Positions 11,249 to 30,993 of a stretch of DNA of 37,793 nt are shown here, piece after piece (position 1 is the first letter of the stretch; each line of letters opens with the position of its first letter). The stretch comes from Brachyspira sp. (GTDB lineage: Bacteria; Spirochaetota; Brachyspiria; Brachyspirales; Brachyspiraceae): contig NZ_JARHYI010000153.1 of assembly GCF_029258575.1 (NCBI RefSeq), positions 1 to 37,793 of the forward strand, in the 5' to 3' direction. Position numbers and translations under genes: made by a program. Below the pieces are notes generated by a model. The model was not told the DNA's origin and ran no database searches. It saw only the letters and a list, made by a program, of their open reading frames with translations.

Positions 11249-11275
11249 ATATTTTCCTTTTATATTATTGAAAAA

Positions 11276-11304
11276 AGTATACTATATAGATGTATTTATT
11301 TCAA
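11276..11304 (-). promoter_or_regulatory. Promoter of the 494-residue lipoprotein gene
   Basis: On the minus strand the elements are TTGAAA (11299-11304), a 17-bp spacer and TATACT (11276-11281). The -10 lies about 28 bp before the ATG at 11248. Confidence 0.65.
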
Positions 11305-13001: not shown

Positions 13002-13874
13002 CTAAATAGAATTATTAAATATTTCACAATAAGGCTCAACATACTGATTTTCTGATAATGCAATTTTACTAACATCTGTACTTTGAATATTAGTTACTGT
13101 TTGTCCATTTTCATCTATGGTTATATTAATGGCATAGAAATAGAATGTTCCGTCATCATTTTTCTTTAATTCAATAGAAGCATTATAACCATTTGTATAT
13201 ACATTGTCAAAATTATATGCATTAATATCACCTACTTCTTCAAGTTTATAATCTGATGCTGATATTAATATACCTCTTGATATTCCATTGTACTCATCAA
13301 AAGTTACATCGGCGTTGTTCTCATAAGGGAAATTATCGAAGTTAGGATTCTCTTTTACTTCTCTGTAATAGTAATTATAATAATAATTTTCTTTTTCCCA
13401 TTTACTCATTATAGTTTCATTAGGGTCGCCTTCATAACCTAGATAATTATCTTCATAAAGAATTCCATTTATTACTGAAAAGCCTTTATAGTTTGTAGCT
13501 ATATTGCTTGGACCTTCTTTATATCTATCTTGTATATTATAAGTTTCATAATAGTAAGCATTAGTTCCATCTTTTGAAGATTCAAATATATAATTTTCAT
13601 CTGCTCTATAATCTCCAGAATCATATATATATTCTATATCTCCATTATCTTTGAAAGTGTATTTAGCCATACCGCTTATAATTATTTTATTTTTTACTTT
13701 ATCTAAAAATGCCGAATCTGCCTGTGATAATATTCTTGTTGCTGGTATAGTTTCATTTGACTGTACAGCTTCATTTGTATTAGCATTATTAGCAGAAGTT
13801 TGAGTATCCGTTTTATTGCTACATTGAATTATGATTAAAGATATTATTGCAATCAATAGAAATATTTTTTTCAT
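13002..13874 (-). CDS. Duplicated lipoprotein of the four-copy family, cut short by an amber codon
   Basis: This 290-residue open frame starts MKKIFLLIAIISLIIIQCSN, lipobox IIQC with Cys at residue 18. It is very close to the first 290 residues of the protein at 9764 and shares long identical DNA runs (for example 88 identical bases, 13379-13466 and 10762-10849). It stops at YVEPYCEIFNNSI where the full-length copy continues, and the downstream sequence stays in frame and similar (12870-13001), so the stop is a recent nonsense mutation or a strain-specific or sequencing change. TAGGAG lies about 10 bases before the ATG, with a TTGAAA-like -35 further up. The shortened lipoprotein may still be made. 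Confidence 0.8.
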   Translation of the reverse strand: MKKIFLLIAIISLIIIQCSNKTDTQTSANNANTNEAVQSNETIPATRILSQADSAFLDKVKNKIIISGMAKYTFKDNGDIEYIYDSGDYRADENYIFESSKDGTNAYYYETYNIQDRYKEGPSNIATNYKGFSVINGILYEDNYLGYEGDPNETIMSKWEKENYYYNYYYREVKENPNFDNFPYENNADVTFDEYNGISRGILISASDYKLEEVGDINAYNFDNVYTNGYNASIELKKNDDGTFYFYAINITIDENGQTVTNIQSTDVSKIALSENQYVEPYCEIFNNSI

Positions 13875-13961
13875 AACATTAATCTCCTAAACATTAATTC
13901 CTAACATGATATAATATAATATAATATATTTCAAGAAAAAATATTATTTTATAAAAAGTAA

Positions 13962-16867: not shown

Positions 16868-17980
16868 TTATTCAAATAAAATATTTTTTTCTGTGTCCTT
16901 ATCGAATATATGAATACTATTTAAATCAAAATCTATAAATACTTTATCATCTATTTTATAATCATTACTTGTATTTATTTTTATTGTGATTTGAAAATCA
17001 TTTAAATTCATGTATAAATAACTCTCAGAACCTATGACTTCAATAACATCAATAATAGCCTGCATCAAATTAGGAGAATTGCTCTCTGATTTATCTTTAT
17101 GAAGTATAATATTTTCAGGTCTTATTCCCAAAACAACTTCTTTTCCATCATAAGAATCCTCAACTTTTGAAGTTCTGTCATTATTCAATTCTATTTCATA
17201 TTTATCAAAAGCAGCATACCATTTTCCGCTTTTCTTTGAAAGTTTTGCATTTATAAAATTCATTTGAGGAGCACCTATAAATCCAGCAACAAATAAATTT
17301 TTAGGGCTGTTATAAAGAGCTTTAGCATCATCAACCTGCATAATATCTCCGTCTTTCATAACAACAATTCTACTACCCATAGTCATAGCTTCTACTTGGT
17401 CATGCGTAACATATACAAAAGTTGTTTGAAGTTGTTTATGAAGTTTAATCAATTCTGTACGCATCTGTACTATCAATTTAGCATCAAGATTTGATAAAGG
17501 CTCATCCAATAAAAATACGGAAGGATTTCTAACCATAGCTCTTCCTAATGCCACCCTTTGACGCTGTCCGCCTGATAATGCTTTAGGCTTTCTATCTAAT
17601 AAATGTGCTATATCAAGAACTTGAGCAGCCCATTCAACTCTTTTCTTAATCTCATCTTTCGGAGTTTTTCTAATCTCAAGCCCAAAAGCCATGTTCTTAA
17701 AAACAGACATATGAGGATATAAAGCATAATTCTGAAATACCATAGCTATATCTCTATCTTTTGGAGCTACATCATTAACTAATCTATCTCCTATATACAA
17801 TTTACCGTCTGTGATATCTTCAAGCCCTGCTATCATACGGAGTGTTGTAGATTTACCACACCCAGATGGTCCTACAAGAATTACAAACTCTTTATCTGCT
17901 ATATCAAGACTAAAATCTTTAACAACCTCAACATTATTATCATATACTTTTCTTATATGCTCAAATTTAATACTAGACAT
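16868..17980 (-). CDS. ABC transporter ATPase of the MsmK/UgpC/MalK type
   Basis: This 370-residue protein energises CUT1 sugar importers. Walker A GPSGCGKST is at 37-45, the Q-loop at VFQNYALYPHMSV, signature LSGGQRQ at 135-141, Walker B VFLLDEP with Asp159/Glu160, a D-loop SNLDA, and the switch His in VTHDQVEAMTMG. Residues about 235-370 form the regulatory TOBE/OB domain (LGIRPENI). It is the last gene of the minus-strand sugar-import set. The 46-bp gap to the DUF5107 gene suits one operon with the permeases at 20071 and 20927. A shared ATPase serving several importers is also common in this class. Confidence 0.93.
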   Translation of the reverse strand: MSSIKFEHIRKVYDNNVEVVKDFSLDIADKEFVILVGPSGCGKSTTLRMIAGLEDITDGKLYIGDRLVNDVAPKDRDIAMVFQNYALYPHMSVFKNMAFGLEIRKTPKDEIKKRVEWAAQVLDIAHLLDRKPKALSGGQRQRVALGRAMVRNPSVFLLDEPLSNLDAKLIVQMRTELIKLHKQLQTTFVYVTHDQVEAMTMGSRIVVMKDGDIMQVDDAKALYNSPKNLFVAGFIGAPQMNFINAKLSKKSGKWYAAFDKYEIELNNDRTSKVEDSYDGKEVVLGIRPENIILHKDKSESNSPNLMQAIIDVIEVIGSESYLYMNLNDFQITIKINTSNDYKIDDKVFIDFDLNSIHIFDKDTEKNILFE

Positions 17981-18026
17981 AATACCATTCCTTATCTTTT
18001 ATTTATTAAAATTATAAATGATTATT

Positions 18027-20051
18027 TTAAATCTTTACCATTCTAAAATCTAAATTTTCGGGTGCCTCTGCTTCAATTCTAATTTGTTTAATAAGTTCAT
18101 CATTAAATTCGATACCCTCTTTTTCTGATTTTAATTTGGCAATATATTCAAAATAAACATCTAATATATAATTTTCTCCTTCACGTATGGTTATCTGCTC
18201 CATATTAAAAATTTCTTCAAGCTTATCATACTGCTTTAAAAACAAATAGGAACGGGCAGCATATAAAGCTATTTTTTCGCAATAACCACGTTTTTCATAT
18301 ATTTCTACTACTTTATCATATTTTTTCAATAAGTCAAACAAATAAAAATATTCTACTAAAAAAGCTTCATCTATTTTTAATATATCAAATATCTCAACTG
18401 CTTTACTCATATAATATAAAGCTTTTTCATAATCTTTTTTATCTTTATAATATACAGATATATTTCTATAGGCTATAGCAGTAGGTTTAATATCCAAAGA
18501 TTTAAGCCATGATTCTAATGCTTTATCCTCCATAAAACTTTCATAATAAATAATACCCAAATGAACAAATACAGCAGCATTTTTATCATCACAAGATTCT
18601 AATAAATTTTTAAAATCCAACATATAAGAAATAGGAAGTTCATCAGATTCCATCTCATCTAAATAACCTTTATCTAAGAAATCCTTCCAAATCATAGAAT
18701 CTTCTTTCATTGAGTCTTTAGGAAATATCATAGACTTAAAAGATTTATTTAAATTATATTTTTCTCTCCTAATATCCTCTAATGCTCCCCATCCTTTTCC
18801 ATAAGATAATATACTGCTTATTTGCAAATCTGATTCTTCTGAGAATTTATTCATTAAATTATTCAAATGATTCTCATCAATATTTCTATTAACTTCTGCT
18901 TCAACTTTTTCTCTAGCTTTAGAATAATCCTCTGCAAATATATCATCATAATTATCTTTTAAATAATCAAAACTAAATGCCTGAATAAACTCTATACAGC
19001 TATTGGCATCCATATCAAAACCATTTACCTGAGTAGGCATTATACCAGCCTGAACTTCTATATATTCTCCTTCATTTCCTTTTGATAAAAAACTTTCCCA
19101 CTTTCTTCCGCCTCTTAAATTTCCCCAGCAGAACATCTTTCTGTATCTCAATTTATTAGTAGATCTTTCAAAAAACATAAATCCATCATTATAAACGGCA
19201 GCTTCCCAAGGACTTACAGTTTCTTTTTTAGTTTGAAAGAAATACTCGCTTGAATACTCAAAATTTAGAGGATAGCTTCCATCTTCTACAAAAGGAGTTT
19301 TAGGAAGTTTAGAGGCTCCAAATTTCTTAATAGAATTTTCTGTAGAACCCACACTATTAGGATATATATAAACAATATCATCTGTTGCTGAAAATACTCT
19401 AATATTTTTTTCTTCTCTCACTGCTATATTAGTCCACCAATACATAGGTTTTTTATAATTTTCATCATTAATTATTTTTACATAAACATATAAATTTTTA
19501 TCTCCATCAATAAGTCTAAAATCCATTTGATAATATATTCTTTTAGTTCTTTCAAACTCATAAACTCTAAGAAACTCTTTATTATCATTATCTTTAACTA
19601 CAGAGAAAAACAAAGGTTCGCAAGTTTGTAAAGAATGTCCGAACTGAGAAACATTCCATTCTATACCGCCTGAAAACCAAGCATTTCTAGAAGCTAAATT
19701 AGCAACTTGGAAAACGGGATTTTTAAATAAAATATCTTTTCCTGTTTCTTTATCAACCAAAGAATATAATCGTCCGCCGTATTCAGGTAAAAATACAGCT
19801 TTAACTTTATCATTCTCTATAACAACGGTATTTAATTTTATATTAGTCTTATTTCTATCATATCTATCTTGCATCTTATAAGGTAATAGTCTAAGCCCTA
19901 TTTCATAACCTATATTTTCCATACTTTCTTCATTCAAAGTTCCATCACTTTTAATCTGTTTATCTTTCTGTCTGTCCCTAAATATAGGAAGCGGATTTTC
20001 GCCTTTCAATAAACTTCCTTCAATATCCAAATGAGAAACATATATTTTCAT
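18027..20051 (-). CDS. DUF5107 domain protein with C-terminal TPR repeats
   Basis: This 674-residue protein has no signal peptide. Residues about 70-390 match DUF5107, a galactose-mutarotase-like beta-sandwich: LPEYGGRLYSLVDKETGKDILFKNP, then GGIEWNVSQFGHS, and RKMFCWGNLRGGRKWE. Residues about 490-660 carry TPR-like helices (AAVFVHLGIIYYESFMEDKA, IAYRNISVYYKDKKDYEKA). Members of this family lie next to glycan and sugar genes; their reaction is not known to me. A cytoplasmic sugar-binding or sugar-modifying role is inferred from the fold and from its place between the permeases and the ATPase. It is shorter than many DUF5107-TPR proteins, which often exceed 1,000 residues (from memory). Confidence 0.85.
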   Translation of the reverse strand: MKIYVSHLDIEGSLLKGENPLPIFRDRQKDKQIKSDGTLNEESMENIGYEIGLRLLPYKMQDRYDRNKTNIKLNTVVIENDKVKAVFLPEYGGRLYSLVDKETGKDILFKNPVFQVANLASRNAWFSGGIEWNVSQFGHSLQTCEPLFFSVVKDNDNKEFLRVYEFERTKRIYYQMDFRLIDGDKNLYVYVKIINDENYKKPMYWWTNIAVREEKNIRVFSATDDIVYIYPNSVGSTENSIKKFGASKLPKTPFVEDGSYPLNFEYSSEYFFQTKKETVSPWEAAVYNDGFMFFERSTNKLRYRKMFCWGNLRGGRKWESFLSKGNEGEYIEVQAGIMPTQVNGFDMDANSCIEFIQAFSFDYLKDNYDDIFAEDYSKAREKVEAEVNRNIDENHLNNLMNKFSEESDLQISSILSYGKGWGALEDIRREKYNLNKSFKSMIFPKDSMKEDSMIWKDFLDKGYLDEMESDELPISYMLDFKNLLESCDDKNAAVFVHLGIIYYESFMEDKALESWLKSLDIKPTAIAYRNISVYYKDKKDYEKALYYMSKAVEIFDILKIDEAFLVEYFYLFDLLKKYDKVVEIYEKRGYCEKIALYAARSYLFLKQYDKLEEIFNMEQITIREGENYILDVYFEYIAKLKSEKEGIEFNDELIKQIRIEAEAPENLDFRMVKI

Positions 20052-20070
20052 ATAATATATCCTTAATTAA

Positions 20071-20910
20071 TTAACCTTTTATAGCTCCGCCTGTAACATT
20101 AGCAATAATTTTTTCTGAAAGTATTACATACAATATAAATGTAGGTAAAAATACTATAACAACTGCAGCAAACATACCAGCCCAATCCCCTGTATATCTC
20201 ATTGATTGTATCATAGAAAATAAACCAACGGCAAGAGGTCTCATATTACTATTATTTGCAAATATTAATGCCATAAAATACTCATTCCAAACAGTAATAA
20301 AATTAAAAATAGTTACTGTAATAATTCCCGGCTGAGCTAAAGGAAGCATTATTACCCAAAATGTTTTCATAGGTCCGCATCCATCTATAGCAGCAGCTTC
20401 TTCAAATGTAAAAGATAAACTCTTGAAAAAAGTTATAAGGAAAAACACAGTAAAAGGTATATTGATCCCTATATATAAAAATATCAATACTAATCTTGAA
20501 TTTGTCATCTTAAGAGATGTTACTATACCAAATAAAGGCATAATTATCATAATAGCAGGTATTCCCAAAGCAATTACAAATATTTTCTGTACAGCACCAT
20601 TCAATTTAAATGGAAATCTTGCTAATACATAAGCTGCAGGTGCAGATATAATTATTATGCCAAAACAAGAAATTATAGTATAAATAAGAGAATTCAAAAA
20701 ATATTTAGCTACATTATGAGTAACTAAAGCTTTTATATAATTCTCAGGATGTAATCCGTCTTTAAATAAAGTATTCTGAAATATATTTGGAGTTGTAGAA
20801 AAAGATGCTAATATTATCCAGCCTATAACCAAAAATGTAAAAGTACACCAAAGAGATACTAAAGCATATCCTGGAAGCAAAGCAATTTGTTTATATTTCG
20901 TTTTATTCAT
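20071..20910 (-). CDS. CUT1 sugar ABC transporter permease (MalG/LacG type)
   Basis: This 279-residue inner-membrane protein has about six hydrophobic helices. The EAA loop that docks on the ATPase is clear: FEEAAAIDGCGPMKTFWVIMLPLAQPG at about 185-212. The C-terminus IANVTGGAIKG matches the usual VxGLTxGAVKG ending of MalG-type subunits. It follows the other permease after 16 bp and precedes the DUF5107 gene after 19 bp, so it is in an operon with both. Confidence 0.92.
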   Translation of the reverse strand: MNKTKYKQIALLPGYALVSLWCTFTFLVIGWIILASFSTTPNIFQNTLFKDGLHPENYIKALVTHNVAKYFLNSLIYTIISCFGIIIISAPAAYVLARFPFKLNGAVQKIFVIALGIPAIMIIMPLFGIVTSLKMTNSRLVLIFLYIGINIPFTVFFLITFFKSLSFTFEEAAAIDGCGPMKTFWVIMLPLAQPGIITVTIFNFITVWNEYFMALIFANNSNMRPLAVGLFSMIQSMRYTGDWAGMFAAVVIVFLPTFILYVILSEKIIANVTGGAIKG

Positions 20911-20926
20911 AAAAAACTCCGCTCAA

Positions 20927-21838
20927 TTAAAACTCTAATTTTTTATCTTTGAATATTATATTAGTAACAATAAAAGAAAGTACGATTATCAAAGTAAGTA
21001 CAACACCTACTGCAGCTCCGTTACCAACATTCCTATCTAAAACAACCTGATTTGCACCAAATACTTCCTGATACATATAAACCATTGGAGTAACAGTTCC
21101 AGGCTCAGGAATTAAAGGTGAGAATAATTGAGACCATACAAAAAATCCTACAGCATTTATAGTCCATAAAACCACATTAGTTCTCATAATATCTGAGAGA
21201 AGAGGCAATGTTATTTGGAAAAATTGCTGAAATACATTAGCACCGTCTATAGTAGCAGCTTCATAAAAATCGGTTGGTATTCTTTCTATACCTGCCATAA
21301 ATATAAGCATGAAATAACCTACCATACCGAAAGAATATGCTATTACCAAAGCAATAAATATATTATCAGGAGAAGTCCATTGCATATTTGCTAACTTATC
21401 AATAGACAAAAAACTAAATACACTTTTTAATAGACCATATTTAGAATTATATACATAGTGAATCCACATAGTAGCCATAGCAACAGCAGATACCACATTA
21501 GGCAAATATATAACAGATCTATAAAATGACTTAAACTTTACTCCTGAAGTAAGAATTACAGCAAAAAGTAAAGCAAAGAAAAATATAATTATACCGCCTA
21601 TTAACCATATAAAAAATACATTCTTTAAAGACTGCATAAATAACTGACTATTAAGCAAATTAATATAATTTCCTAAACCAATAAATCCCCATTCAGACAT
21701 TCTAGATGAAATAGAATCCATCTTAAAAAAACTCATTATAATTGTTTTTATTGTAGGATAAAAGAATATTAATGTATACATCAAAACTGCTGGAGATAGA
21801 AATAATATTATCATTAGTAATCTAGTTTTCTTAAGCAT
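20927..21838 (-). CDS. CUT1 sugar ABC transporter permease (MalF/UgpA type)
   Basis: This is a 303-residue inner-membrane subunit with about six helices and an EAA loop (FYEAATIDGANVFQQFFQITLPLL). I start it at the internal Met that reads MLKKTRLLMI because GGGAG stands 8 bases before that ATG. The frame could start 12 codons earlier at 21874, but no ribosome-binding site is there. It is the first gene of the minus-strand import operon, with its own promoter at 21972-22000. The binding-protein gene upstream has a separate promoter and a terminator. Confidence 0.9.
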   Translation of the reverse strand: MLKKTRLLMIILFLSPAVLMYTLIFFYPTIKTIIMSFFKMDSISSRMSEWGFIGLGNYINLLNSQLFMQSLKNVFFIWLIGGIIIFFFALLFAVILTSGVKFKSFYRSVIYLPNVVSAVAMATMWIHYVYNSKYGLLKSVFSFLSIDKLANMQWTSPDNIFIALVIAYSFGMVGYFMLIFMAGIERIPTDFYEAATIDGANVFQQFFQITLPLLSDIMRTNVVLWTINAVGFFVWSQLFSPLIPEPGTVTPMVYMYQEVFGANQVVLDRNVGNGAAVGVVLTLIIVLSFIVTNIIFKDKKLEF

Positions 21839-21971
21839 ATTTAACTCCCAATTAAATAAAATTAGCATATACATTATAACTTCATATGAATATTAAAATA
21901 TACTCAATATTGCTTCAAAAAATTTTTAAGATTTTTCACAAAAATAAATATTATTACTTTCACTGTGATAT

Positions 21972-22000
21972 AGTATAGTGAATATTTTATACATTGTCAA
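21972..22000 (-). promoter_or_regulatory. Promoter of the permease operon
   Basis: On the minus strand the elements are TTGACA (21995-22000), 17 bp, then TATACT (21972-21977), giving a 5' leader of about 125 bases. The hexamers sit in AACTTGACAATGTA and ACTATACTA, both also found at the binding-protein promoter. A palindrome, acaaatttgt (22005-22014), lies just upstream of the -35 and is a possible operator. The rest of the 21839-22156 gap holds only this promoter and the terminator at 22096-22131. Confidence 0.75.
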
Positions 22001-22095
22001 GTTAACAAATTTGTAACATATAAAAATTTAATACTGTAAAATATATTATATCAAAAATACTATAGATTAGTTTTTATTTAATTTAAAACATATAA

Positions 22096-22131
22096 AAATC
22101 TCCTAAAATGAATATTCATTTCAGGAGATTT
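22096..22131 (-). terminator. Terminator of the sugar-binding lipoprotein gene
   Basis: The 18-bp stem is fully paired on the minus strand with one G-U pair and is followed by a TTTTT run. It lies about 25 bp after the stop at 22157 and separates the binding-protein unit from the permease operon. Confidence 0.85.
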
Positions 22132-22156
22132 CTTTTATTATAAAATTTGTTTTATA

Positions 22157-23410
22157 TTATTTTTTTACTTCATCAACAAACTGCTCAGCTGTATATTGAC
22201 CTGACAAAACTTTAGTAAATGCTGCTACTATAACAGGAGTTTTATCAGTATTATACTGCACGCCTCCAGCCCAAGGATAACAAGCACCTAATTGTGAGAA
22301 TACCACCTTAGCATCTTCTAATTGTTTAGGCCAATCTGTTGTATTAGCCATAGGAACACCATAAGTTTTTTCTGCTAATTGTTTATCCCATTCTCCTGTA
22401 GTTAAATGTACTATCAATTTAAATACTTCTTCAGGATATTTTGTATTTTTATTAACTTGGAATGATTGTCCGCCGTAATTTAAATCATAAAGTCCTGATA
22501 CTCCGTTTGGTACTGTAGGATAAGGGAATTGTCCCCAAGGGAAATCAGGTCCTGTTGTAGGCATAATTTCATTTACAAGCCAAGTACCATTCAAATACAT
22601 TGTTACTTCACCATTAGCTACTTCCTGCTGACCTTGAGGGTATTTATTTCCTGCTACATTTGGAGAAACATAACCTAATTTATACATCTCTTCCCAGTCT
22701 TTAGCAGCCTGTAATACTGCAGGATCATCCCAATTTTTTCCTTCTATTACTAATTGTTTTACCCAATCAGAACCTTTATATTTAGCTAATTGAAATCCGT
22801 AAATAACATCAACATAAGCATCATCTACAGTTATAGGAGTAAATCCTGCTGCTTTTAATTTAGCACATGCATCTTTAAACTCTGCCCAAGTTTCAGGAAC
22901 TTTTGTAATACCAGCTTTAGCAAAATGATCTTTATTATACATAATTAAGAATGTAAAAGGCTGATAAGGTATAGCATAAATTTTTCCATCTTCTGAATAT
23001 GTTTTAGCTAATTCTAAAAGAGAAGAAATAACAGTTTCCTGATATGGTTTTCCATCTGTTGTATCATAACTCTTTGCAACATAATCATCTAAAGGCATTG
23101 CATACTTACCCCAAGTTCTTATAGTTCTTTCTAAATCTTCATCCCATATATCTATTATTTGATTATTGTCAAGTGCAGGCTGTAAAGTCTTTCTTATCTC
23201 TCTTCCGCTCCAATTCACTGTAACTTTTACATCAGGATATTTTTTCATATAATCCTCGATAGCTGCCTTGATAACCTGACCTTGAGGCTCTACCTCATTC
23301 CACATTGACCAATATACTATTGTTTTTTTATTAGTATCATCTGTTTTACCACAAGAAAATAATACAAATACAAAAAACACACTCAAACCTAAAAAAATTA
23401 ACTTTTTCAT
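22157..23410 (-). CDS. Sugar ABC transporter substrate-binding lipoprotein (SBP family 1)
   Basis: I start this 417-residue protein at MKKLIFLGLSVFFVF because AAGGAGACTAAAG precedes that ATG. The frame opens 42 codons earlier at 23536, but that extension spans the promoter and would bury the signal peptide. Lipobox LFSC puts the lipidated Cys at residue 20. The mature part starts VYWSMWNEVEPQ and has typical family-1 features: a YAIPYQPFTFLIMYNK strand, AEFKDACAKLKAAG, and GEVTMYLNGTWLV. It captures an unknown sugar outside the inner membrane and passes it to the permeases at 20927 and 20071. A single-gene unit is usual for a binding protein needed in excess. Confidence 0.92.
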   Translation of the reverse strand: MKKLIFLGLSVFFVFVLFSCGKTDDTNKKTIVYWSMWNEVEPQGQVIKAAIEDYMKKYPDVKVTVNWSGREIRKTLQPALDNNQIIDIWDEDLERTIRTWGKYAMPLDDYVAKSYDTTDGKPYQETVISSLLELAKTYSEDGKIYAIPYQPFTFLIMYNKDHFAKAGITKVPETWAEFKDACAKLKAAGFTPITVDDAYVDVIYGFQLAKYKGSDWVKQLVIEGKNWDDPAVLQAAKDWEEMYKLGYVSPNVAGNKYPQGQQEVANGEVTMYLNGTWLVNEIMPTTGPDFPWGQFPYPTVPNGVSGLYDLNYGGQSFQVNKNTKYPEEVFKLIVHLTTGEWDKQLAEKTYGVPMANTTDWPKQLEDAKVVFSQLGACYPWAGGVQYNTDKTPVIVAAFTKVLSGQYTAEQFVDEVKK

Positions 23411-23459
23411 CTTTAGTCTCCTTAAAATATAAAAAGAATAAAACACTGCATATTTTATT

Positions 23460-23487
23460 AGTATAGTTACTATTGTTACATTGTCAA
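23460..23487 (-). promoter_or_regulatory. Promoter of the binding-protein gene
   Basis: On the minus strand the elements are TTGACA (23482-23487), 16 bp, then TATACT (23460-23465), with a leader of about 42 bases. The hexamers lie within AACTTGACAATGTA and ACTATACTA, as at the permease promoter. The spacer holds a GTAAC direct repeat. Confidence 0.75.
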
Positions 23488-23629
23488 GTTTATTAATAAT
23501 TTTTTTATATTCATATTTCATATTTATCATTGACATTCATCAAATAAAGTATAAACTATAATATATATGTATAATTAATTATTATATTAGTTACATATAA
23601 ATGAATAAAAAATTATATGGGGGCTTTAT

Positions 23630-24487
23630 ATGCTAAAAAAAGGAATTAATCTTTGGGCTTTTCCTGCAGGAACTTCTTATAAAGATATGTTCACAATAGC
23701 AAAAGATGCAGGATTTGAAGGAATCGAGTTAAGTCTTACAGAAGAAGGTCCTTTAGGATTAAAAAGTTCTGAAAAAGATATATTGGAAGTAAAAAAAATG
23801 GCTGATGATATGGGACTTCAAATCAAAAGTTTTGCTTCTGATTTAGCTTGGGGTAATCCTATCACATCATCTGATGAAAAAATTAGAGATGATGCTGTTT
23901 CTTATATAAAAAGACAGCTTGAAGTAGCTTCCATACTCAATGCTGACACTATTCTTTTGGTTCCAGGATATGTTGGTGTTGATTTCATACCAAACAGCGA
24001 AGTTATTTATTATGAAGATGCTTATAAAAGAGCTAAAGAATGTATTTCAAAAGTTGTAGATACTGCTGAAAAATTTAAAGTTGCTATAGGTATAGAAAAT
24101 GTTTGGAATAAATTTTTAATTTCTGCTATGGAAATGCGTAACTTTATAGATGAATTTAATAGTGATTATGTAGGTTCATACTTTGACGTAGGTAATGTTA
24201 TTTATATGGGATATCCTGAACAATGGATAAAAGTTCTTGGTAAAAGAATTAAAAAAGTTCACTTCAAAGATTATAGAAGAGAAGTTGGTACTCTATCAGG
24301 ATTTGTAGATTTACTTGCAGGAGATGTTAATTATCCTGCTGTAGTAGAGGCTCTTAAAGAAATCGGATATGATGACTTCTGTACTGGAGAAATGATTCCT
24401 GCTTATAAGTATTATACATATCAAATTATATATAATACTTCAGCTTCTATGGATATTATACTTGGAAGAAAGAAATTTCCTTGTTAA
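23630..24487 (+). CDS. Sugar-phosphate isomerase/epimerase-type TIM barrel protein
   Basis: This 285-residue protein has an AP-endonuclease-2-like barrel (the IolE/IolI/UlaE superfamily). The strand ends carry metal-ligand candidates: Glu in GIENVW, Asp in YFDVGN, His in VHFKDYRR, and Glu in TGEM. Family members epimerise or isomerise keto sugars or dehydrate inositol derivatives in the cytoplasm. GGGGG stands just before the ATG. It is the first of three plus-strand genes, 32 bp before the first dehydrogenase, divergent from the sugar-binding protein. The exact substrate cannot be told from sequence. A keto-sugar or keto-glycoside is plausible because two oxidoreductases follow. Confidence 0.88.
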   Translation: MLKKGINLWAFPAGTSYKDMFTIAKDAGFEGIELSLTEEGPLGLKSSEKDILEVKKMADDMGLQIKSFASDLAWGNPITSSDEKIRDDAVSYIKRQLEVASILNADTILLVPGYVGVDFIPNSEVIYYEDAYKRAKECISKVVDTAEKFKVAIGIENVWNKFLISAMEMRNFIDEFNSDYVGSYFDVGNVIYMGYPEQWIKVLGKRIKKVHFKDYRREVGTLSGFVDLLAGDVNYPAVVEALKEIGYDDFCTGEMIPAYKYYTYQIIYNTSASMDIILGRKKFPC

Positions 24488-24519
24488 TTTTATTTAAATG
24501 AGTAAGTAGGAGAAATTTT

Positions 24520-25509
24520 ATGATAGCTATAATAGGCGGTGGTTTCATAAGCACTATACATGCTTCATGCTATAAAAATTTAGGTGTAAAAATAGAAGCC
24601 ATTGCAGATATAAGTGAGGAAGTAAGGAATAATTTCTCATCTAAATTTAATTGCAAGGCTTATGAATCTGCTGAAAAAATGCTTGAGGAAACAGCTGATA
24701 AAATAGAAATAGTGGATATATGTGCTCCGACATTTTTGCATAAAGAAATGATTGAGTTAGCTTTAAAATATAATAAACATGTTATATGCGAAAAACCGCT
24801 CTCTATTAATTTAAACATGTATGATGAAATAATATCTAAATTTCAAAATTCTGATAAATATTTGATGACAGCTCAAGTAATAAGATTTTGGCCTGAATAT
24901 GTAAAAATTAAAGAATGGATAGATACTGGAGTTTTAGGAAATATAAAACTAGTATCTGCCAAAAGACTTGCACAGCATCCTAAAAGTAAATGGTTTTATG
25001 ATCCTTCTAAAAGTGGAGGCGGTATATTTGAACTTCATATACATGATATAGATTTTCTTTGCTATTTATTCGGTGATGTTAAAGAAGTATACGCTAACGG
25101 TTCTCAAGATGAGAATAAATCTTGGGATTTTGTAAATAGTTCTATAAAATTCAAAAATGGTGTAAGTGCTGTATCTCAAGGTGCTTTTGGAATCACTGAG
25201 AATTATCCTTTTACTGCTAATTTCAAAGTTATAGGCGATAAAGGTACTGCAGAATTTAATCTTTCTGCGGGTGTTAACCTTGATAGCGGAGGTACAAACA
25301 GTTTAACTCTTTATAGAAACGGCTATCAACCTATAATAGAAAATGTTGGAAATAGAGATCCTTATGAAATAGAGTTAGAATATTTTATTAATTGTGTGAA
25401 AAATAAAATTTATCCTGAAATTGTTAATTTAAATTCTATTAGAAAATCAATAGAAACAACGATAAATTTAATTAAATCTTTAGAAACTGAAAATGTTATA
25501 AAATACTAA
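24520..25509 (+). CDS. Gfo/Idh/MocA oxidoreductase 1
   Basis: This 329-residue protein has an N-terminal Rossmann domain with IAIIGGGFISTIHASCY and the EKPLSI motif near residue 94. The C-terminal substrate domain has a SGGGIFELHIHDIDFLCYLF segment with the usual catalytic His/Asp set near residues 165-185. Family members oxidise a sugar or cyclitol hydroxyl with NAD(P). GGAG lies before the ATG. It is close to the next gene throughout, so the two come from duplication, but the dinucleotide loop differs (GGGFIS against GGGFMG). The pair may act as partners or on two related substrates. Confidence 0.9.
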   Translation: MIAIIGGGFISTIHASCYKNLGVKIEAIADISEEVRNNFSSKFNCKAYESAEKMLEETADKIEIVDICAPTFLHKEMIELALKYNKHVICEKPLSINLNMYDEIISKFQNSDKYLMTAQVIRFWPEYVKIKEWIDTGVLGNIKLVSAKRLAQHPKSKWFYDPSKSGGGIFELHIHDIDFLCYLFGDVKEVYANGSQDENKSWDFVNSSIKFKNGVSAVSQGAFGITENYPFTANFKVIGDKGTAEFNLSAGVNLDSGGTNSLTLYRNGYQPIIENVGNRDPYEIELEYFINCVKNKIYPEIVNLNSIRKSIETTINLIKSLETENVIKY

Positions 25510-25532
25510 TAATCGATTTTAAGGAGTAAAAA

Positions 25533-26534
25533 ATGGTTAAAGTTGCAATAGTAGGTGGCGGTTTCATGGGTACAACTCATGCTAAAGGTTATAAAAATAT
25601 AGGAGTAGAAATTGTTGCCATTGCAGATATAGATAAAAAAGCAAAAGAAGACTTTATGAAAACATATAATTGTAAAGGATTCGATACAGCTCAAAGCATG
25701 ATGGAAGAAATACATTCAGAAATAGATTATTTAGATGTATGTATTCCAACATATCAGCATGAAGAAATGGTCTTACTCGCTACTAAATACAATAAACATG
25801 TATTAAGTGAAAAACCTTTTGCTTTAACTTTGGAAGCTATAGATAATATGCTCGAAGCTACACAAAAAGCAAATAGTATATTTATGATAGGACAAGTGCT
25901 TCATTTCTGGCCTGAATATGCTAAAATAAAAAAATGGATTGATCAAGGAATATTCGGAGAAATAAAATTAGCTACTGCAGTAAGACTTGGACAGCATCCT
26001 GTAAGCGAATGGTATGGAGATATTAATAAAAGCGGAGGCGGTATATACGATCTTCATGTTCACGATATAGATTTCCTTTGCTATTTATTTGGAGATGTAG
26101 AGGAAGTATATGCCACAGGTAAAAAGGCAAGAAAAGATGCTTGGAATTTTGTAGATAGTACATTGAGATTTAAAAATGGAGTTAATGCAACTGCTCAGGC
26201 AGCTTTTGGTATTACTGATAATTATCCTTTCTCTATGAATTTAAGAATAGTAGGTGAAAAAGCGACAGCCGAATTTTCATTCTCTGCAGGATTTAATTTG
26301 GAAGATATTGCATCAGCTAAGAATTCACTAATTTTATATAGAAACGGAGAGAAACCATATCAGGAACCTCCAAGCACTAGAGATCCGTATGAAATAGAAA
26401 TTGAATATTTTGCTAATTGTGTTAAAGAAGGAAAACAACCCGAAATAGTAAAACCTAAAGAAGTAAGAAAATCTATTCAAGCTATTTTAGCTTTAATCAA
26501 ATCATTAGAAACAGGACAGGTTATTAAAATTTAA
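25533..26534 (+). CDS. Gfo/Idh/MocA oxidoreductase 2
   Basis: This 333-residue paralogue of the previous gene starts 23 bp after it with AAGGAG before the ATG. Rossmann loop VAIVGGGFMGTTHAKGY, EKPFALT near residue 93, and SGGGIYDLHVHDIDFLCYLF in the second domain are all intact, and it keeps the more standard dinucleotide loop of the two. It is the last gene of the plus-strand catabolic unit, which ends at the hairpin 26554-26585. Together with the isomerase it could run an oxidise, isomerise or epimerise, reduce sequence. Inositol dehydrogenase or 3-keto-glycoside-forming enzymes are the nearest known themes (inference). Confidence 0.9.
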   Translation: MVKVAIVGGGFMGTTHAKGYKNIGVEIVAIADIDKKAKEDFMKTYNCKGFDTAQSMMEEIHSEIDYLDVCIPTYQHEEMVLLATKYNKHVLSEKPFALTLEAIDNMLEATQKANSIFMIGQVLHFWPEYAKIKKWIDQGIFGEIKLATAVRLGQHPVSEWYGDINKSGGGIYDLHVHDIDFLCYLFGDVEEVYATGKKARKDAWNFVDSTLRFKNGVNATAQAAFGITDNYPFSMNLRIVGEKATAEFSFSAGFNLEDIASAKNSLILYRNGEKPYQEPPSTRDPYEIEIEYFANCVKEGKQPEIVKPKEVRKSIQAILALIKSLETGQVIKI

Positions 26535-26553
26535 TATTTTAATTCCATTATAA

Positions 26554-26585
26554 AATTAAGGGAGAATATAAATCCTCCCTTAATT
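26554..26585. terminator. Bidirectional terminator
   Basis: A perfect 11-bp stem (aattaagggag / ctcccttaatt) with a 10-base loop lies between two convergent genes. AT-rich runs on both sides make it usable by both strands. Confidence 0.8.
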
Positions 26586-26597
26586 ATTAATCAAACA

Positions 26598-27341
26598 TTA
26601 TATAGCAAACTTTCTAAACTCATCTGCAAGTGCTTTAGCTTCCATACCAACTACTATATGAACTTCATTATCACTTATTTTTTGCACAGCTGGATAATAC
26701 TTTTTTATCTCTTCTGCATTTATTTTATTAATATCTTTCACTTCCAATCTTAATCTAGTGGCACAATTATTAATTTTTAATATATTTTCTATTCCTCCTA
26801 ACAAAGGTAAAAGTAATGAACTTTTAAAACTTTGACTATCCATTAATTCTTTAAATGAATTTGCAAGTTTATTAGCCTCAGTACCTACAACTATATGAAT
26901 TTCATTATCACTTATTTTTTGCACAGCTGGATAATATTTCTTTATCTCTTCTATATTTACTTTATTAATATCTTTTATTTCCAATCTCAATCTAGTAGCA
27001 CAATTATTAATTTTTAATATATTTTCTTTATCTCCTAAAAGAGGAAGTATAACAAAAGCTTTATTACTATTGCTATCATATACAGATATAATCTTTTTTA
27101 AAGATTCAGCAAGAAGTTTAGCATTAGTACCTACAATTATATGAATTTCATTATCACTTATTTTTTGCACAGCTGGATAATACTTTTTTATCTCTTCTGC
27201 ATTAACTTTATCAGCATCTTTAACTTCTAATCTCAATCTAGTAGCACAATTATTTACTTTTAATATATTATCTCTATCTCCAAGCAAATTTAATGGAACT
27301 ATAAATTTCACATCTTCTTTATTAGATGAATTAATACTCAT
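26598..27341 (-). CDS. Triple EIIB protein: three tandem PTS glucose-family IIB domains
   Basis: This 247-residue protein consists of three near-identical EIIB domains, at about 13-86, 94-168 and 174-246, with short linkers and no IIA, IIC or signal segment. Each keeps NNCATRLRLE with the phospho-accepting Cys at 32, 114 and 193, then EEIKKYYPAVQKISDNE and a [IV]VG strand. The DNA repeats with a period near 240 bp, so it arose by recent duplication. Known EIIB domains pass phosphate from IIA to sugar at IIC. The neighbours are a IICB permease (27481) and a separate IIA (29144). It could be an extra phosphate relay or buffer for that permease. A GAGGT ribosome-binding site precedes the ATG. 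Confidence 0.9.
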   Translation of the reverse strand: MSINSSNKEDVKFIVPLNLLGDRDNILKVNNCATRLRLEVKDADKVNAEEIKKYYPAVQKISDNEIHIIVGTNAKLLAESLKKIISVYDSNSNKAFVILPLLGDKENILKINNCATRLRLEIKDINKVNIEEIKKYYPAVQKISDNEIHIVVGTEANKLANSFKELMDSQSFKSSLLLPLLGGIENILKINNCATRLRLEVKDINKINAEEIKKYYPAVQKISDNEVHIVVGMEAKALADEFRKFAI

Positions 27342-27355
27342 TTTTTACCTCATAC

Positions 27356-27381
27356 AATATTATTAATTTATTAATAATATT
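27356..27381. promoter_or_regulatory. Perfect AT palindrome before the triple-EIIB gene
   Basis: The 12-bp arms are separated by 2 bases, all A/T, and start 15 bp before the ATG, just upstream of the ribosome-binding site. It may be an operator or an RNA hairpin that affects translation. It is not a normal terminator, since the stem has no G or C. Confidence 0.45.
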
Positions 27382-27424
27382 AACACAATCTTAATTTTAT
27401 TTCTATATTCATTTTTATATAAAA

Positions 27425-27457
27425 AAGGCTTACAATATATAAAAAATTGCAAGCCTT
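27425..27457 (-). terminator. Terminator of the PTS IICB gene
   Basis: A 12-bp stem (one G-U pair on the minus strand) is followed by TTTTTT, 24 bp after the stop of the permease. It implies that the triple-EIIB gene needs read-through or its own promoter. Confidence 0.75.
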
Positions 27458-27480
27458 AATATTTTATTTAATTTAATGAA

Positions 27481-28941
27481 TTACTTTTTAGCTATTTTTT
27501 TAAATTCATCAGCTAAGAACTGTACTTTAGGTCCTACAATTACTTGTACAGAAGTTTTACCAGGTTTTAATACACCAGGGAACATCTTTTTAATTTCATC
27601 AGACTTTACAACAGTATTATCTTTTACTTCCAATCTAAGTCTAGTAGCACAGTTATCAATATCAATTATATTTTCTAAACCACCAAGCAAAGGAAGAAGA
27701 AGTAATGCTTTTTCAGCATAAGAGGCATCTGAGGAAGAAGTAACAGTAACTTCTACTTCATCATCATCTTCTCTTCCAGGAGTTTTTAAATTGAATTTCT
27801 TTATAGCAAAATTGAATATAACAAAGTAAAGTACAAAGAAAACTACACCTTGTAAAATAAGCATATACCATTTAACAGCTAATGGGTTTCTACTAGAAAG
27901 AATCAAGTCTATTAAACCAGCAGAGAAACCAAAACCAGCTATCCATTTCATACTAGAAGCAATAATCAAAGATATAGCAGTAAATAAAGCATGTATAAGA
28001 TATAATATAGGAGCAACAAACATAAATGAGAATTCTATAGGCTCAGTAACACCTGTAAAGAAACTTGCAAAACCAGCAGCAAGCATTATAGATCTAATTT
28101 TATTTCTGTTTTCAGGCTTAGCATTTCTTATGAAAGCAAAACATGCTCCTAAAAGTCCGAACATCATTATAGGGAAGAATCCAGCTTGATACATACCTGT
28201 TTGCCCTATAATAGCTTTTCCTGCATCTATAGAAGCCTGACCGCCTAAGAAATTAGGTATATCATTAATTCCTGCAACATCAAACCAGAACACTGAGTTA
28301 AGAGCATGGTGTAAACCTAAAGGAATTAAAAGTCTATTAAAGAATCCATATATTCCAGCACCTAAAGATCCAAGACCAATTATACCTTCACCAAATGCTA
28401 CCAAACCTCCGTAAATTGCGGGCCAAATTACCATCAAAATAAATGATACTACCATCATAACTACAGAAGTTACTATTGGTACGAATCTTCTTCCGCTAAA
28501 GAATGCCAAAAATTCAGGTAATTTTACTTCATAGAATTTATTATATAAACCGCCAGCTATGATACCACAAAGTATACCTATAAACTGATTATTTATTTTA
28601 GCAAAACCAGCAGGTACTTGATCTGCAGGTTTACTTAAAATCATACCAACTGTAGCAGGAGCTAAAAGAGTTGTTACAACAAGGAAAGCAACTAAACCAG
28701 CGAGTGCAGCAGAACCGTTTCTATCTTTAGACATACCAAAAGCAACACCGACAGCAAATAATATAGGCATGTTATCTATAATAGATCCTCCAGCCTTAAT
28801 AAAGAAAGCAGCTGCAGGATTTCCACCTCCCCAACCATTTGGGTCTATCCAATAACCAATACCTAAAAGAATAGCTGCTGCAGGTAATACAGCTACAGGA
28901 ACCATCAGCGACTTACCTATTTTTTGTAGATAATTAAACAT
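27481..28941 (-). CDS. nagE: PTS IICB permease, N-acetylglucosamine/glucose family
   Basis: This 486-residue inner-membrane sugar-phosphotransferase permease has a IIC domain at about 1-385 with roughly ten hydrophobic helices, then an acidic linker and a IIB domain at about 410-486 with DNCATRLRLE as phospho-Cys site. IIC matches the GlcNAc (NagE/NagP) branch better than PtsG by eye: NRLLIPLGLHHALNSVFWF, then DVAGINDI, GMYQAGFFPIMMFGLLGA, and FNLKTPGRED at the linker. TGVTEPIEFSFMFVAP is the usual substrate-site loop. It lacks a IIA domain, which is supplied by the divergent gene at 29144. GGAGG lies before the ATG. The gene symbol is by family resemblance and the sugar is inferred. Confidence 0.85.
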   Translation of the reverse strand: MFNYLQKIGKSLMVPVAVLPAAAILLGIGYWIDPNGWGGGNPAAAFFIKAGGSIIDNMPILFAVGVAFGMSKDRNGSAALAGLVAFLVVTTLLAPATVGMILSKPADQVPAGFAKINNQFIGILCGIIAGGLYNKFYEVKLPEFLAFFSGRRFVPIVTSVVMMVVSFILMVIWPAIYGGLVAFGEGIIGLGSLGAGIYGFFNRLLIPLGLHHALNSVFWFDVAGINDIPNFLGGQASIDAGKAIIGQTGMYQAGFFPIMMFGLLGACFAFIRNAKPENRNKIRSIMLAAGFASFFTGVTEPIEFSFMFVAPILYLIHALFTAISLIIASSMKWIAGFGFSAGLIDLILSSRNPLAVKWYMLILQGVVFFVLYFVIFNFAIKKFNLKTPGREDDDEVEVTVTSSSDASYAEKALLLLPLLGGLENIIDIDNCATRLRLEVKDNTVVKSDEIKKMFPGVLKPGKTSVQVIVGPKVQFLADEFKKIAKK

Positions 28942-28986
28942 ATATCCTCCATAAAAATTACAAAATTAATTTTTTCTTCATATATT

Positions 28987-29015
28987 AGTATAATACTTAT
29001 TTTCTATATTATCAA
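28987..29015 (-). promoter_or_regulatory. Promoter of the PTS IICB gene
   Basis: On the minus strand the elements are TTGATA (29010-29015), 17 bp, then TATACT (28987-28992). The -10 lies 46 bp before the ATG. Confidence 0.65.
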
Positions 29016-29083
29016 GTATAATACTATTTTTTAATATTATTATAATTTATATACTGAAATATCATATATTTTTAATATAATTA

Positions 29084-29111
29084 TTTACTTTAAAAACATT
29101 TATGATAGAAT
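29084..29111 (+). promoter_or_regulatory. Promoter of the IIA gene
   Basis: The elements are TTTACT (29084-29089), 16 bp, then TAGAAT (29106-29111). An unusually strong ribosome-binding site, GGAGGAA, follows before the ATG at 29144. Confidence 0.5.
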
Positions 29112-29143
29112 ATATATATAAATAAATTTGCGGAGGAATTCGT

Positions 29144-29608
29144 ATGGGATTATTCTCTAAAAAAATTGAAATAAAAAGTCCTATTAAAGGCAAATTAGTA
29201 GATATTACTGATGTTAAAGATGAAGCTTTTTCAAGTAAGGCACTTGGAGATGGAATGGCTATAATACCTGAAGAAGGAAAGATTTATTCACCTGTTGATG
29301 GAGAAGTTATTACAACAGTTGATACTAATCATGCTATAGGACTATCCTCTAAAGGAGTCGAAATATTAATACATATAGGAATGGATACTGTTAAATTAGG
29401 AGGCAGATATTTTAAATCATATGTAAATGAAGGAGATAAAGTAAAGACTGGAACTTTACTAATAGAGTTTGATAAAGAAGAAGTTGAAAAAGAATATGAT
29501 ATTACTTCGCCTATTATAATACCTAATTTTTCCGAATTGAAATCTTTAAATAAAACAGAGCATAGAAATGTTTCTACAAATGATGTTATAATGACTATTG
29601 TTAAATAA
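29144..29608 (+). CDS. crr: PTS glucose-family IIA protein (Crr type)
   Basis: This 154-residue soluble IIA domain alone receives phosphate from HPr and gives it to IIB. Motifs: SPIKGKLVDITDVKDEAFSS, GDGMAIIPEEGKIYSPVDG, TNHAIGL with His63, and VEILIHIGMDTV with the active His77. The IIB partners are the IIB domain at 27481 and perhaps the triple-EIIB protein. It is divergent from the permease, so the PTS is split into separately controlled units. In other bacteria a free IIA of this type also regulates uptake and cyclase activity; whether it does here is unknown. Confidence 0.93.
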   Translation: MGLFSKKIEIKSPIKGKLVDITDVKDEAFSSKALGDGMAIIPEEGKIYSPVDGEVITTVDTNHAIGLSSKGVEILIHIGMDTVKLGGRYFKSYVNEGDKVKTGTLLIEFDKEEVEKEYDITSPIIIPNFSELKSLNKTEHRNVSTNDVIMTIVK

Positions 29609-29622
29609 GATCTGCTAATTTT

Positions 29623-29646
29623 AATAGGAGCTAAAAAGCTCCTATT
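29623..29646. terminator. Terminator between the IIA gene and the response regulator
   Basis: A perfect 10-bp stem (aataggagct / agctcctatt) with a 4-base loop is followed on the plus strand by ATTTTTTATT. It mainly serves the IIA gene and may also stop the convergent regulator transcript. Confidence 0.85.
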
Positions 29647-29658
29647 ATTTTTTATTCT

Positions 29659-30993
29659 TTATATATCCTCTTTCAATTTTCTATATAATGTTGCTCTTTC
29701 TATTCCCAATATTTTTGCAACTTGTGCTTTATTAAAATTATTATGACTAAGTAAATAATTAATATACATTCTTTCAAGCTCCTCTAATGTAACATTATTA
29801 TCTACAACGAAATTTTCATTATTATTTTTTAAAGCCCAATCTGGTATATTATTCTCATCTATTTTACCATCTTTACACATAACTACCATAGTTTCAATAG
29901 TATTTCTTAACTCTCTTACATTTCCTTCCCATTGTAATGAAGATAATATTTTATAAACCTTTTTATCAACAGCTTTTATTTCTATAGAATGAACATTTGA
30001 AAATTCTTTTATAAAATTATCTATCAAAAGCGGGATATCCTCTCTTCTATCTCTAAGTGGAGGCATTTCTATTTTTATAACATTAAGCCTATAATATAAA
30101 TCCTCTCTAAACTTACCTTCTTTTATTTCTTCAGATAATATTTTATTGGTGGCAGCAATTACCCTTATATCAACATCAATAGGACTATTAGAACCAACTC
30201 TCTCTATGACTCTCTCTTCAAGCACCCTTAAAAGTTTAACCTGAACAGTTTGATTAATCTCACCTATTTCATCTAAAAAAATAGTACCCTTATTTGCCGC
30301 TTCAAATCTTCCTATCTTCTTATCTATAGCACCAGTAAAAGAACCTTTTTCATGCCCAAATAATTCACTTTCCAAAACTCCTTCAGAAAGTGCCGCACAA
30401 TTCACAGTTATATAAGGCTGATTTGATCTGTCAGATATTTGATGAATAGCATTTGCAACTAACTCCTTACCTGTTCCACTTTCACCTTCTATAAGTACAG
30501 TAGCTTTAGTTCTTGCAACCTGTTTTATAGCATCATAAACTTTTAACATTTTAGGACTATGACCTATCATGCCATAGAAACTTTCATGATAATCAACTCG
30601 TTTTTCTAAAGTTTCATTAGTCTTTTTTATATTTTTACTCTCCAATGCTCTTGCTATTATAAGAAGCATTTTATCGAGATTGAAAGGCTTTGTCATAAAA
30701 TCATAAGCTCCAAGCCTCATCATATCAACAGCCGTTTCTACATTACCATGCCCTGTAAGTACTATTACAGGTATATGCTTATCAAATTCCAAAATATCTT
30801 TCAAAAACTCTTCCCCTGTTTTTTCAGGCATTTTTAAATCTGTTATAACCAAATCTATTCCGCCTTTATAAACGATTTCTATTCCTTTCTCTCCGTTATC
30901 TGCAGTTACAACTTCATAACCCTCAAATTCTAAAGATTTCTTGATACCATCTCTTATATTTTTTTCATCATCTATTACTAATATTTTAGGCAT
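29659..30993 (-). CDS. NtrC-family sigma-54-dependent response regulator
   Basis: This 444-residue protein has a receiver domain at about 1-120 with the phospho-acceptor Asp52 (DLVITDLKMPEK), an AAA+ domain at about 140-370 with Walker A GESGTGKE, a sigma-54 contact loop ELFGHEKGSFTGA (GSFTGA rather than GAFTGA), and Walker B GTIFLDEIGE. A Fis-type helix-turn-helix at the end reads NNFNKAQVAKILGIERATLY. It activates promoters read by sigma-54 when phosphorylated by the kinase whose gene overlaps its own by 8 bp (ends at 30986). Its targets are unknown and I saw no -24/-12 promoter in the window. Confidence 0.94.
   Translation of the reverse strand: MPKILVIDDEKNIRDGIKKSLEFEGYEVVTADNGEKGIEIVYKGGIDLVITDLKMPEKTGEEFLKDILEFDKHIPVIVLTGHGNVETAVDMMRLGAYDFMTKPFNLDKMLLIIARALESKNIKKTNETLEKRVDYHESFYGMIGHSPKMLKVYDAIKQVARTKATVLIEGESGTGKELVANAIHQISDRSNQPYITVNCAALSEGVLESELFGHEKGSFTGAIDKKIGRFEAANKGTIFLDEIGEINQTVQVKLLRVLEERVIERVGSNSPIDVDIRVIAATNKILSEEIKEGKFREDLYYRLNVIKIEMPPLRDRREDIPLLIDNFIKEFSNVHSIEIKAVDKKVYKILSSLQWEGNVRELRNTIETMVVMCKDGKIDENNIPDWALKNNNENFVVDNNVTLEELERMYINYLLSHNNFNKAQVAKILGIERATLYRKLKEDI

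Follow-up and report, generated by a model that had tools for sequence, protein, structure and literature searches.

A gene for three tandem EIIB domains

The window, that is the whole stretch of DNA analysed (37,793 nt of a Brachyspira sp. contig), carries on its minus strand, at positions 26598-27341, a gene for a 247-residue protein composed of three EIIB domains of the glucose family, here called poly-EIIB: unit 1 comprises residues 10-85 (27087-27314), unit 2 residues 92-167 (26841-27068) and unit 3 residues 171-246 (26604-26831). The motif NNCATRLRLE occurs three times, with the predicted phospho-cysteines at residues 32, 114 and 193 (codons 27246-27248, 27000-27002 and 26763-26765).

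The Pfam model PTS_EIIB matched three stretches of the protein with an overall E value of 2.8e-38, which excludes a chance match. The score for PF00367 was 129.4 bits against a cut-off of 27, again in three stretches, and each unit exceeded this cut-off in a search of the genome; TIGR00826 matched the whole protein, in three stretches, with 93.8 bits (cut-off 45.75). No IIA or IIC domain was found in the protein with the Pfam and NCBIfam models. The best NCBIfam model was the GlcNAc-specific IIBC TIGR01998, with 146.9 bits against a cut-off of 553.2: the score lies far under the cut-off because the IIB parts alone match, and the protein is not a permease of this type, as a fused IIC is absent. 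Nor is it a multiphosphoryl transfer protein, since it contains IIB domains only and no mixture of IIA, HPr and EI. The composition described in the first-pass annotation (three EIIB units with NNCATRLRLE, cysteines 32, 114 and 193, neither IIA nor IIC) was therefore reproduced by sequence and domain models. The description of the units as almost identical was overstated: pairwise identity is 67-74% in protein and 77-80% in DNA.

The AlphaFold2 prediction contained three complete IIB folds (mean pLDDT 84.5, pTM 0.55), the pTM value leaving the arrangement of the three domains uncertain. Foldseek matched the predicted fold to the E. coli IIBGlc structures 1o2f_B, 3bp8_C and 3bp3_A; for 1o2f_B the TM score was 0.89 by target length and the rmsd 1.2. 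The longest exact repeat common to the units of the window was 57 nt, which makes read collapse in assembly unlikely, and poly-EIIB with four units is present in genomes assembled into one or two contigs (G004, G009 and G010).

Neighbouring genes and putative control signals

Upstream of the poly-EIIB gene, on the same strand, lies a nagE-type gene (27481-28941) coding for an IICB permease with its own IIB domain (TIGR01998, 631.5 bits, above the cut-off of 553.2), the probable client of poly-EIIB. A lone EIIA gene of the glucose family (29144-29608, plus strand; PF00358, E=1.4e-46), the probable phosphate donor, is divergent from nagE. Both neighbours had been recognized from the sequence before and were confirmed by the domain models.

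The 139-nt spacer between nagE and the poly-EIIB gene (fold z -3.1) contains a terminator-like hairpin with a T tail at 27425-27457 on the minus strand, which a simple terminator scan did not list. Equivalent hairpins are visible by eye in the relatives with nagE upstream, and an exact-stem search called three. A stem search placed a second terminator-like hairpin downstream of the gene, at 26554-26585 on the same strand. Between the spacer hairpin and the start codon, at 27376-27405 (minus strand), is a promoter-like element, TAGAAA-N17-TAATAT with TG before the second hexamer, which is kept before every aligned copy of the gene. Its general form is TAGAAA-N17-TA(A/G)TAT, and it is also found before the copies that have moved away from nagE, with a spacing one shorter. 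The 30-nt pattern of the element gave 18 matches in 26 Brachyspira genomes, each immediately before a poly-EIIB gene; the eight genomes lacking the gene had no match, and the reversed pattern, used as control, gave one. No match was obtained in G008, in which the poly-EIIB gene is broken by contig ends. A gene-specific regulator may bind at a site that overlaps the element. Given the hairpin and the separate element, a simple nagE operon that includes poly-EIIB is unlikely. No Rfam match was found in 26400-29700.

Elsewhere in the window, positions 16871-26534 hold an ABC sugar-transporter cassette together with an isomerase-like and two oxidoreductase genes. The cassette lies between the poly-EIIB gene and an ATPase gene in some species and is absent in others, and hence behaves as a module. 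Two similar lipoprotein-like ORFs with MKKIFLLI...IIQC starts (9767-11281 and 13005-13886, minus strand) lie close together, possibly as a local duplication.

Distribution and genomic context in Brachyspira

The poly-EIIB gene was found in 18 of 26 Brachyspira species: it is complete with four units in 16 of them, comprises three units in the window species and is broken by contig ends in G008. The named loci with poly-EIIB belong to Brachyspira, B. hampsonii and B. innocens included. For the other eight species the best match was the single IIB of a NagE-type permease. A second, shorter poly-EIIB was observed in G009 (L097 2806-4637, two units) and G015 (L103 375-1115), so that the number of gene copies, like that of units, varies between species.

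Among 296 spirochaete genomes, matches outside Brachyspira did not extend beyond about one IIB domain, and none at E<=1e-8 was obtained in those sister genera of the family that were sampled. A scan of GTDB species genomes returned Brachyspira only; its peptide patterns recognize this protein specifically, and multi-EIIB proteins with another ancestry may therefore exist elsewhere. In a plasmid collection, multi-piece matches spanned single IIBs only, the one on a Caballeronia plasmid being a single IIB inside a 644-residue open frame. The arrangement is thus kept in related spirochaetes, a check proposed in the first-pass annotation, and was found only within Brachyspira. Single-copy genes in sister species, decaying cysteines and an assembly error, which the same annotation had named as counter-evidence, were sought and none was found. 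The open-access papers searched contained no description of a multi-EIIB protein, nor of any PTS carrier domain repeated as a homopolymer in which every site is intact.

The nagE gene is divergent from the lone IIA gene in 18 of 18 holders of poly-EIIB. Beyond the lone IIA, ntrC is found in 15 holders and other ORFs in G008; in G015 and G020 the examined stretch ends there. All eight non-holders have nagE in other contexts, and a close orthologue of the lone IIA was detected elsewhere in six of them (not in G013 and G019). In the non-holder G012, nagE is directly followed by the oxidoreductase genes seen in the window, with the poly-EIIB gene absent, which may reflect an insertion in the holders or a clean loss in G012. 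No pseudogene remnant of poly-EIIB was found in the non-holders. A location of their nagE with nagA/nagB was considered and discarded, the neighbours in G012 being metallo-beta-lactamase-fold and tRNA-methyltransferase-like genes.

The moved copies, in G002, G018 and G020, do not adjoin nagE: they follow an ftsK-like gene and have a MsmK/UgpC-like ABC ATPase gene beside them. Eleven holders have this ATPase gene adjacent to poly-EIIB, and three (the window, G004 and G006) have it within about 9 kb; in four it was not detected. In G007 (L095 3348-4838) nagE is broken by a stop codon into 135 and 361 residues, and the adjoining poly-EIIB gene is intact.

Age of the units, unit loss and selection

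Units at the same position were 72-79% identical between species, against 64% for units within one protein. In a tree of the units, which rests on 76 columns and has many poorly supported inner forks, units of different species grouped for the most part with those at the same position, and the NagE IIBs stood apart from every poly-EIIB unit (SH-aLRT 100%). Position-wise grouping and the identity pattern indicate that the four-unit protein is old, in contradiction with the recent amplification proposed in the first-pass annotation. A NagE-like IIB that was duplicated and internally amplified is the probable ancestor of poly-EIIB, both events falling early in the Brachyspira lineages with the gene. 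The NagE tree is weakly resolved; on it, the presence of poly-EIIB requires three changes.

In the alignment, the protein of the window consists of unit 1, which is nearest to unit 1 of the four-unit relatives; a second unit in which unit 2 is joined to the last helix and the linker of the ancestral unit 3; and a third unit that is the counterpart of unit 4. The window species thus appears to have lost one unit by in-frame fusion of units 2 and 3, most simply via recombination between units.

The catalytic Cys-x-Thr-Arg-x-Arg residues are kept in 71 of 71 units (19 genes, 18 species). For pairs with dS below 1, the dN/dS values of same-position units 1 to 4 were 0.16, 0.31, 0.34 and 0.22, respectively. 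Judged by these ratios, all four unit positions are under purifying selection, and the earlier claim that all sites are under selection is supported.

Active-site signature

All 71 poly-EIIB units have His where NagE IIBs have Gln, and the Asp two residues before the Cys is missing in 69 of the 71, mostly replaced by Asn. Both Asp and Gln are retained in every NagE IIB of the genus, that of G007 included, and also in the IIBs encoded at C53 and C89 of the window genome. Alignment and counting from Cys421 place the His at the position of E. coli Q456; in E. coli IIBGlc, Gln456 and Asp419 are located by Cys421. The His and the sequence KKYYP are invariant residues specific to this paralogue. The replacement of Gln and the loss of Asp, compared with NagE, suggest a changed chemistry or a changed partner.

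Other PTS components and regulators of the genome

The genome contains two IIA-Glc domains, the lone IIA and one fused IIA, and three short HPr-like proteins; two longer open frames, of 483 residues (match at G000:C36:10850-11092) and 393 residues (G000:C35:8823-9047), also contain HPr-domain matches. No IIA was found in the open frames of two IICB permeases (C2 and C89). A glucose-family IIC without its own IIB was not found in the genome: C2, C53 and C89 each have one, which goes against the earlier proposal that poly-EIIB serves IIC proteins lacking IIB. Among the five other PF02378 matches, C99, C61 and C134 included, the one examined in full, C39, looks like a cellobiose/lactose-class IIC.

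No Mlc/NagC-like repressor was found among the three ROK proteins: the only one bearing an HTH is XylR-like and lies beside xylose genes, and those of 329 and 315 residues were classed as kinases by length only. The lack of a IIB-less glucose-family IIC and of a Mlc/NagC repressor weakens two proposed roles, as supplier of such IICs and as partner of such a repressor. PRD proteins, which can be controlled by PTS components, gave matches on contigs with other PTS permeases.

Discussion

Poly-EIIB combines ordinary domains with an unusual and old architecture that is apparently restricted to the genus, a conserved control element of its own and a distinct active-site signature. With the E. coli PtsG/NagE EIIB (PF00367) its units have in common the fold, a length of about 75 residues and the Cys-x-Thr-Arg-x-Arg site; they differ in forming one soluble chain of three or four units without IIC, with His in place of Q456 and, for the most part, Asn instead of the Asp two before the Cys. 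Other glucose-family EIIBs also occur without IIC, such as stand-alone PRK09702 and the TpiA-IIB fusion PRK14905, but these are single IIBs according to the model descriptions, and poly-EIIB scores far below their cut-offs. Duplication of a PTS domain within one protein is likewise seen for the IIB of FruA, both IIB domains of which are needed for full activity in E. coli (PMC2405797), and for the HPr/IIA of multiphosphoryl transfer proteins. These belong to the fructose family and are fused to IIC or other PTS domains, and are not soluble IIB homopolymers.

We favour, at a probability of roughly 40%, a function of poly-EIIB as a soluble phospho-EIIB with several heads, which would receive phosphate from the divergent lone IIA and relay or buffer it. 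EI, HPr and the lone IIA would charge the cysteines, so that a single flexible chain would bear three phosphocysteines (four in sister species). Acting in trans for the IICB permeases that lack IIA, NagE first, this chain would deliver its phosphate to sugar at the site of the IIC or return it to the IIA. The promoter-like element, being separate from nagE, would set the amount of poly-EIIB independently of the permease. Many EIIBs are phosphorylated by EIIAs of the glucose family, and IIC and IIB remain active when separated (PMC6148471), which makes it plausible that the lone IIA charges poly-EIIB and that poly-EIIB works in trans.

The relay or buffer function is supported by the site residues kept in every unit, the low dN/dS, the complete predicted folds, the presence of HPr and the lone IIA in the genome, and the divergent nagE-IIA pair of all 18 holders. 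Against it count the tethered IIB that NagE already has, so that an extra supply is not obviously needed; the Gln and Asp positions changed in poly-EIIB and kept in the NagE IIBs; the eight species that manage without the gene; and the location of the gene away from nagE in three holders.

These same changed positions would rather favour a regulator that responds to its phosphorylation state: the phosphorylated or unphosphorylated string would bind a transcription factor or another partner, its several heads providing avidity, and so report sugar flux. This reading, the main alternative, is tentative. It fits the separate gene-specific promoter-like element, the paralogue-specific His and KKYYP and the existence of PRD proteins in the genome, and it has a precedent in the sequestration of Mlc by unphosphorylated E. 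coli IICBGlc, also an EIIB acting as flux sensor (PMC3901232). However, that protein is membrane-bound and requires a Mlc-type repressor, and none was found in this genome, where the one HTH-bearing ROK is XylR-like; the PRD matches lie on contigs holding other PTS permeases, and the string has no effector domain.

Both active-site arginines of EIIB are needed for transfer of phosphate to sugar and not for accepting it. Their invariance in poly-EIIB is the reason for preferring relay or buffering to state sensing. We regard as possible, while doubting it, that the string has ceased to be an EIIB of transport and now works as a dedicated phosphocysteine device with several sites, as reservoir or as sensor of PTS flux, in which His for Gln would alter the life-time or the target of the phosphocysteine and the level would be set by a gene-specific promoter/operator unique in the genome. 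The arginines also speak against a phosphate sink that would hold IIA unphosphorylated and tune its signalling while passing no phosphate to sugar; this we consider improbable, in spite of the several acceptor cysteines per chain and the altered active-site residues.

A link from the PTS to an ABC sugar importer through the MsmK/UgpC-like ATPase is more improbable still. The ATPase gene adjoins poly-EIIB in most holders, or lies within about 9 kb, and moved with it in G002, G018 and G020; four holders have no detected close orthologue, which rules out an obligatory link, and four species without poly-EIIB (G001, G012, G017 and G019) have the ATPase. That repeat expansion left poly-EIIB as a dispensable by-product, or that it is an artefact of assembly, is very unlikely: the gene is missing in eight species and varies in units and copies, but conservation of the catalytic residues in 71 units, dN/dS well below 1, the kept promoter-like element and the four units of near-complete assemblies contradict it.

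The genus Brachyspira includes the swine-dysentery species, and to our knowledge the control of sugar uptake in these species has been little studied. The poly-EIIB family provides a natural test of whether linked phosphocysteine carriers change PTS flux or signalling, and the His of the string against the Gln of NagE, an invariant difference within the same cells, offers a sharp mutational handle.
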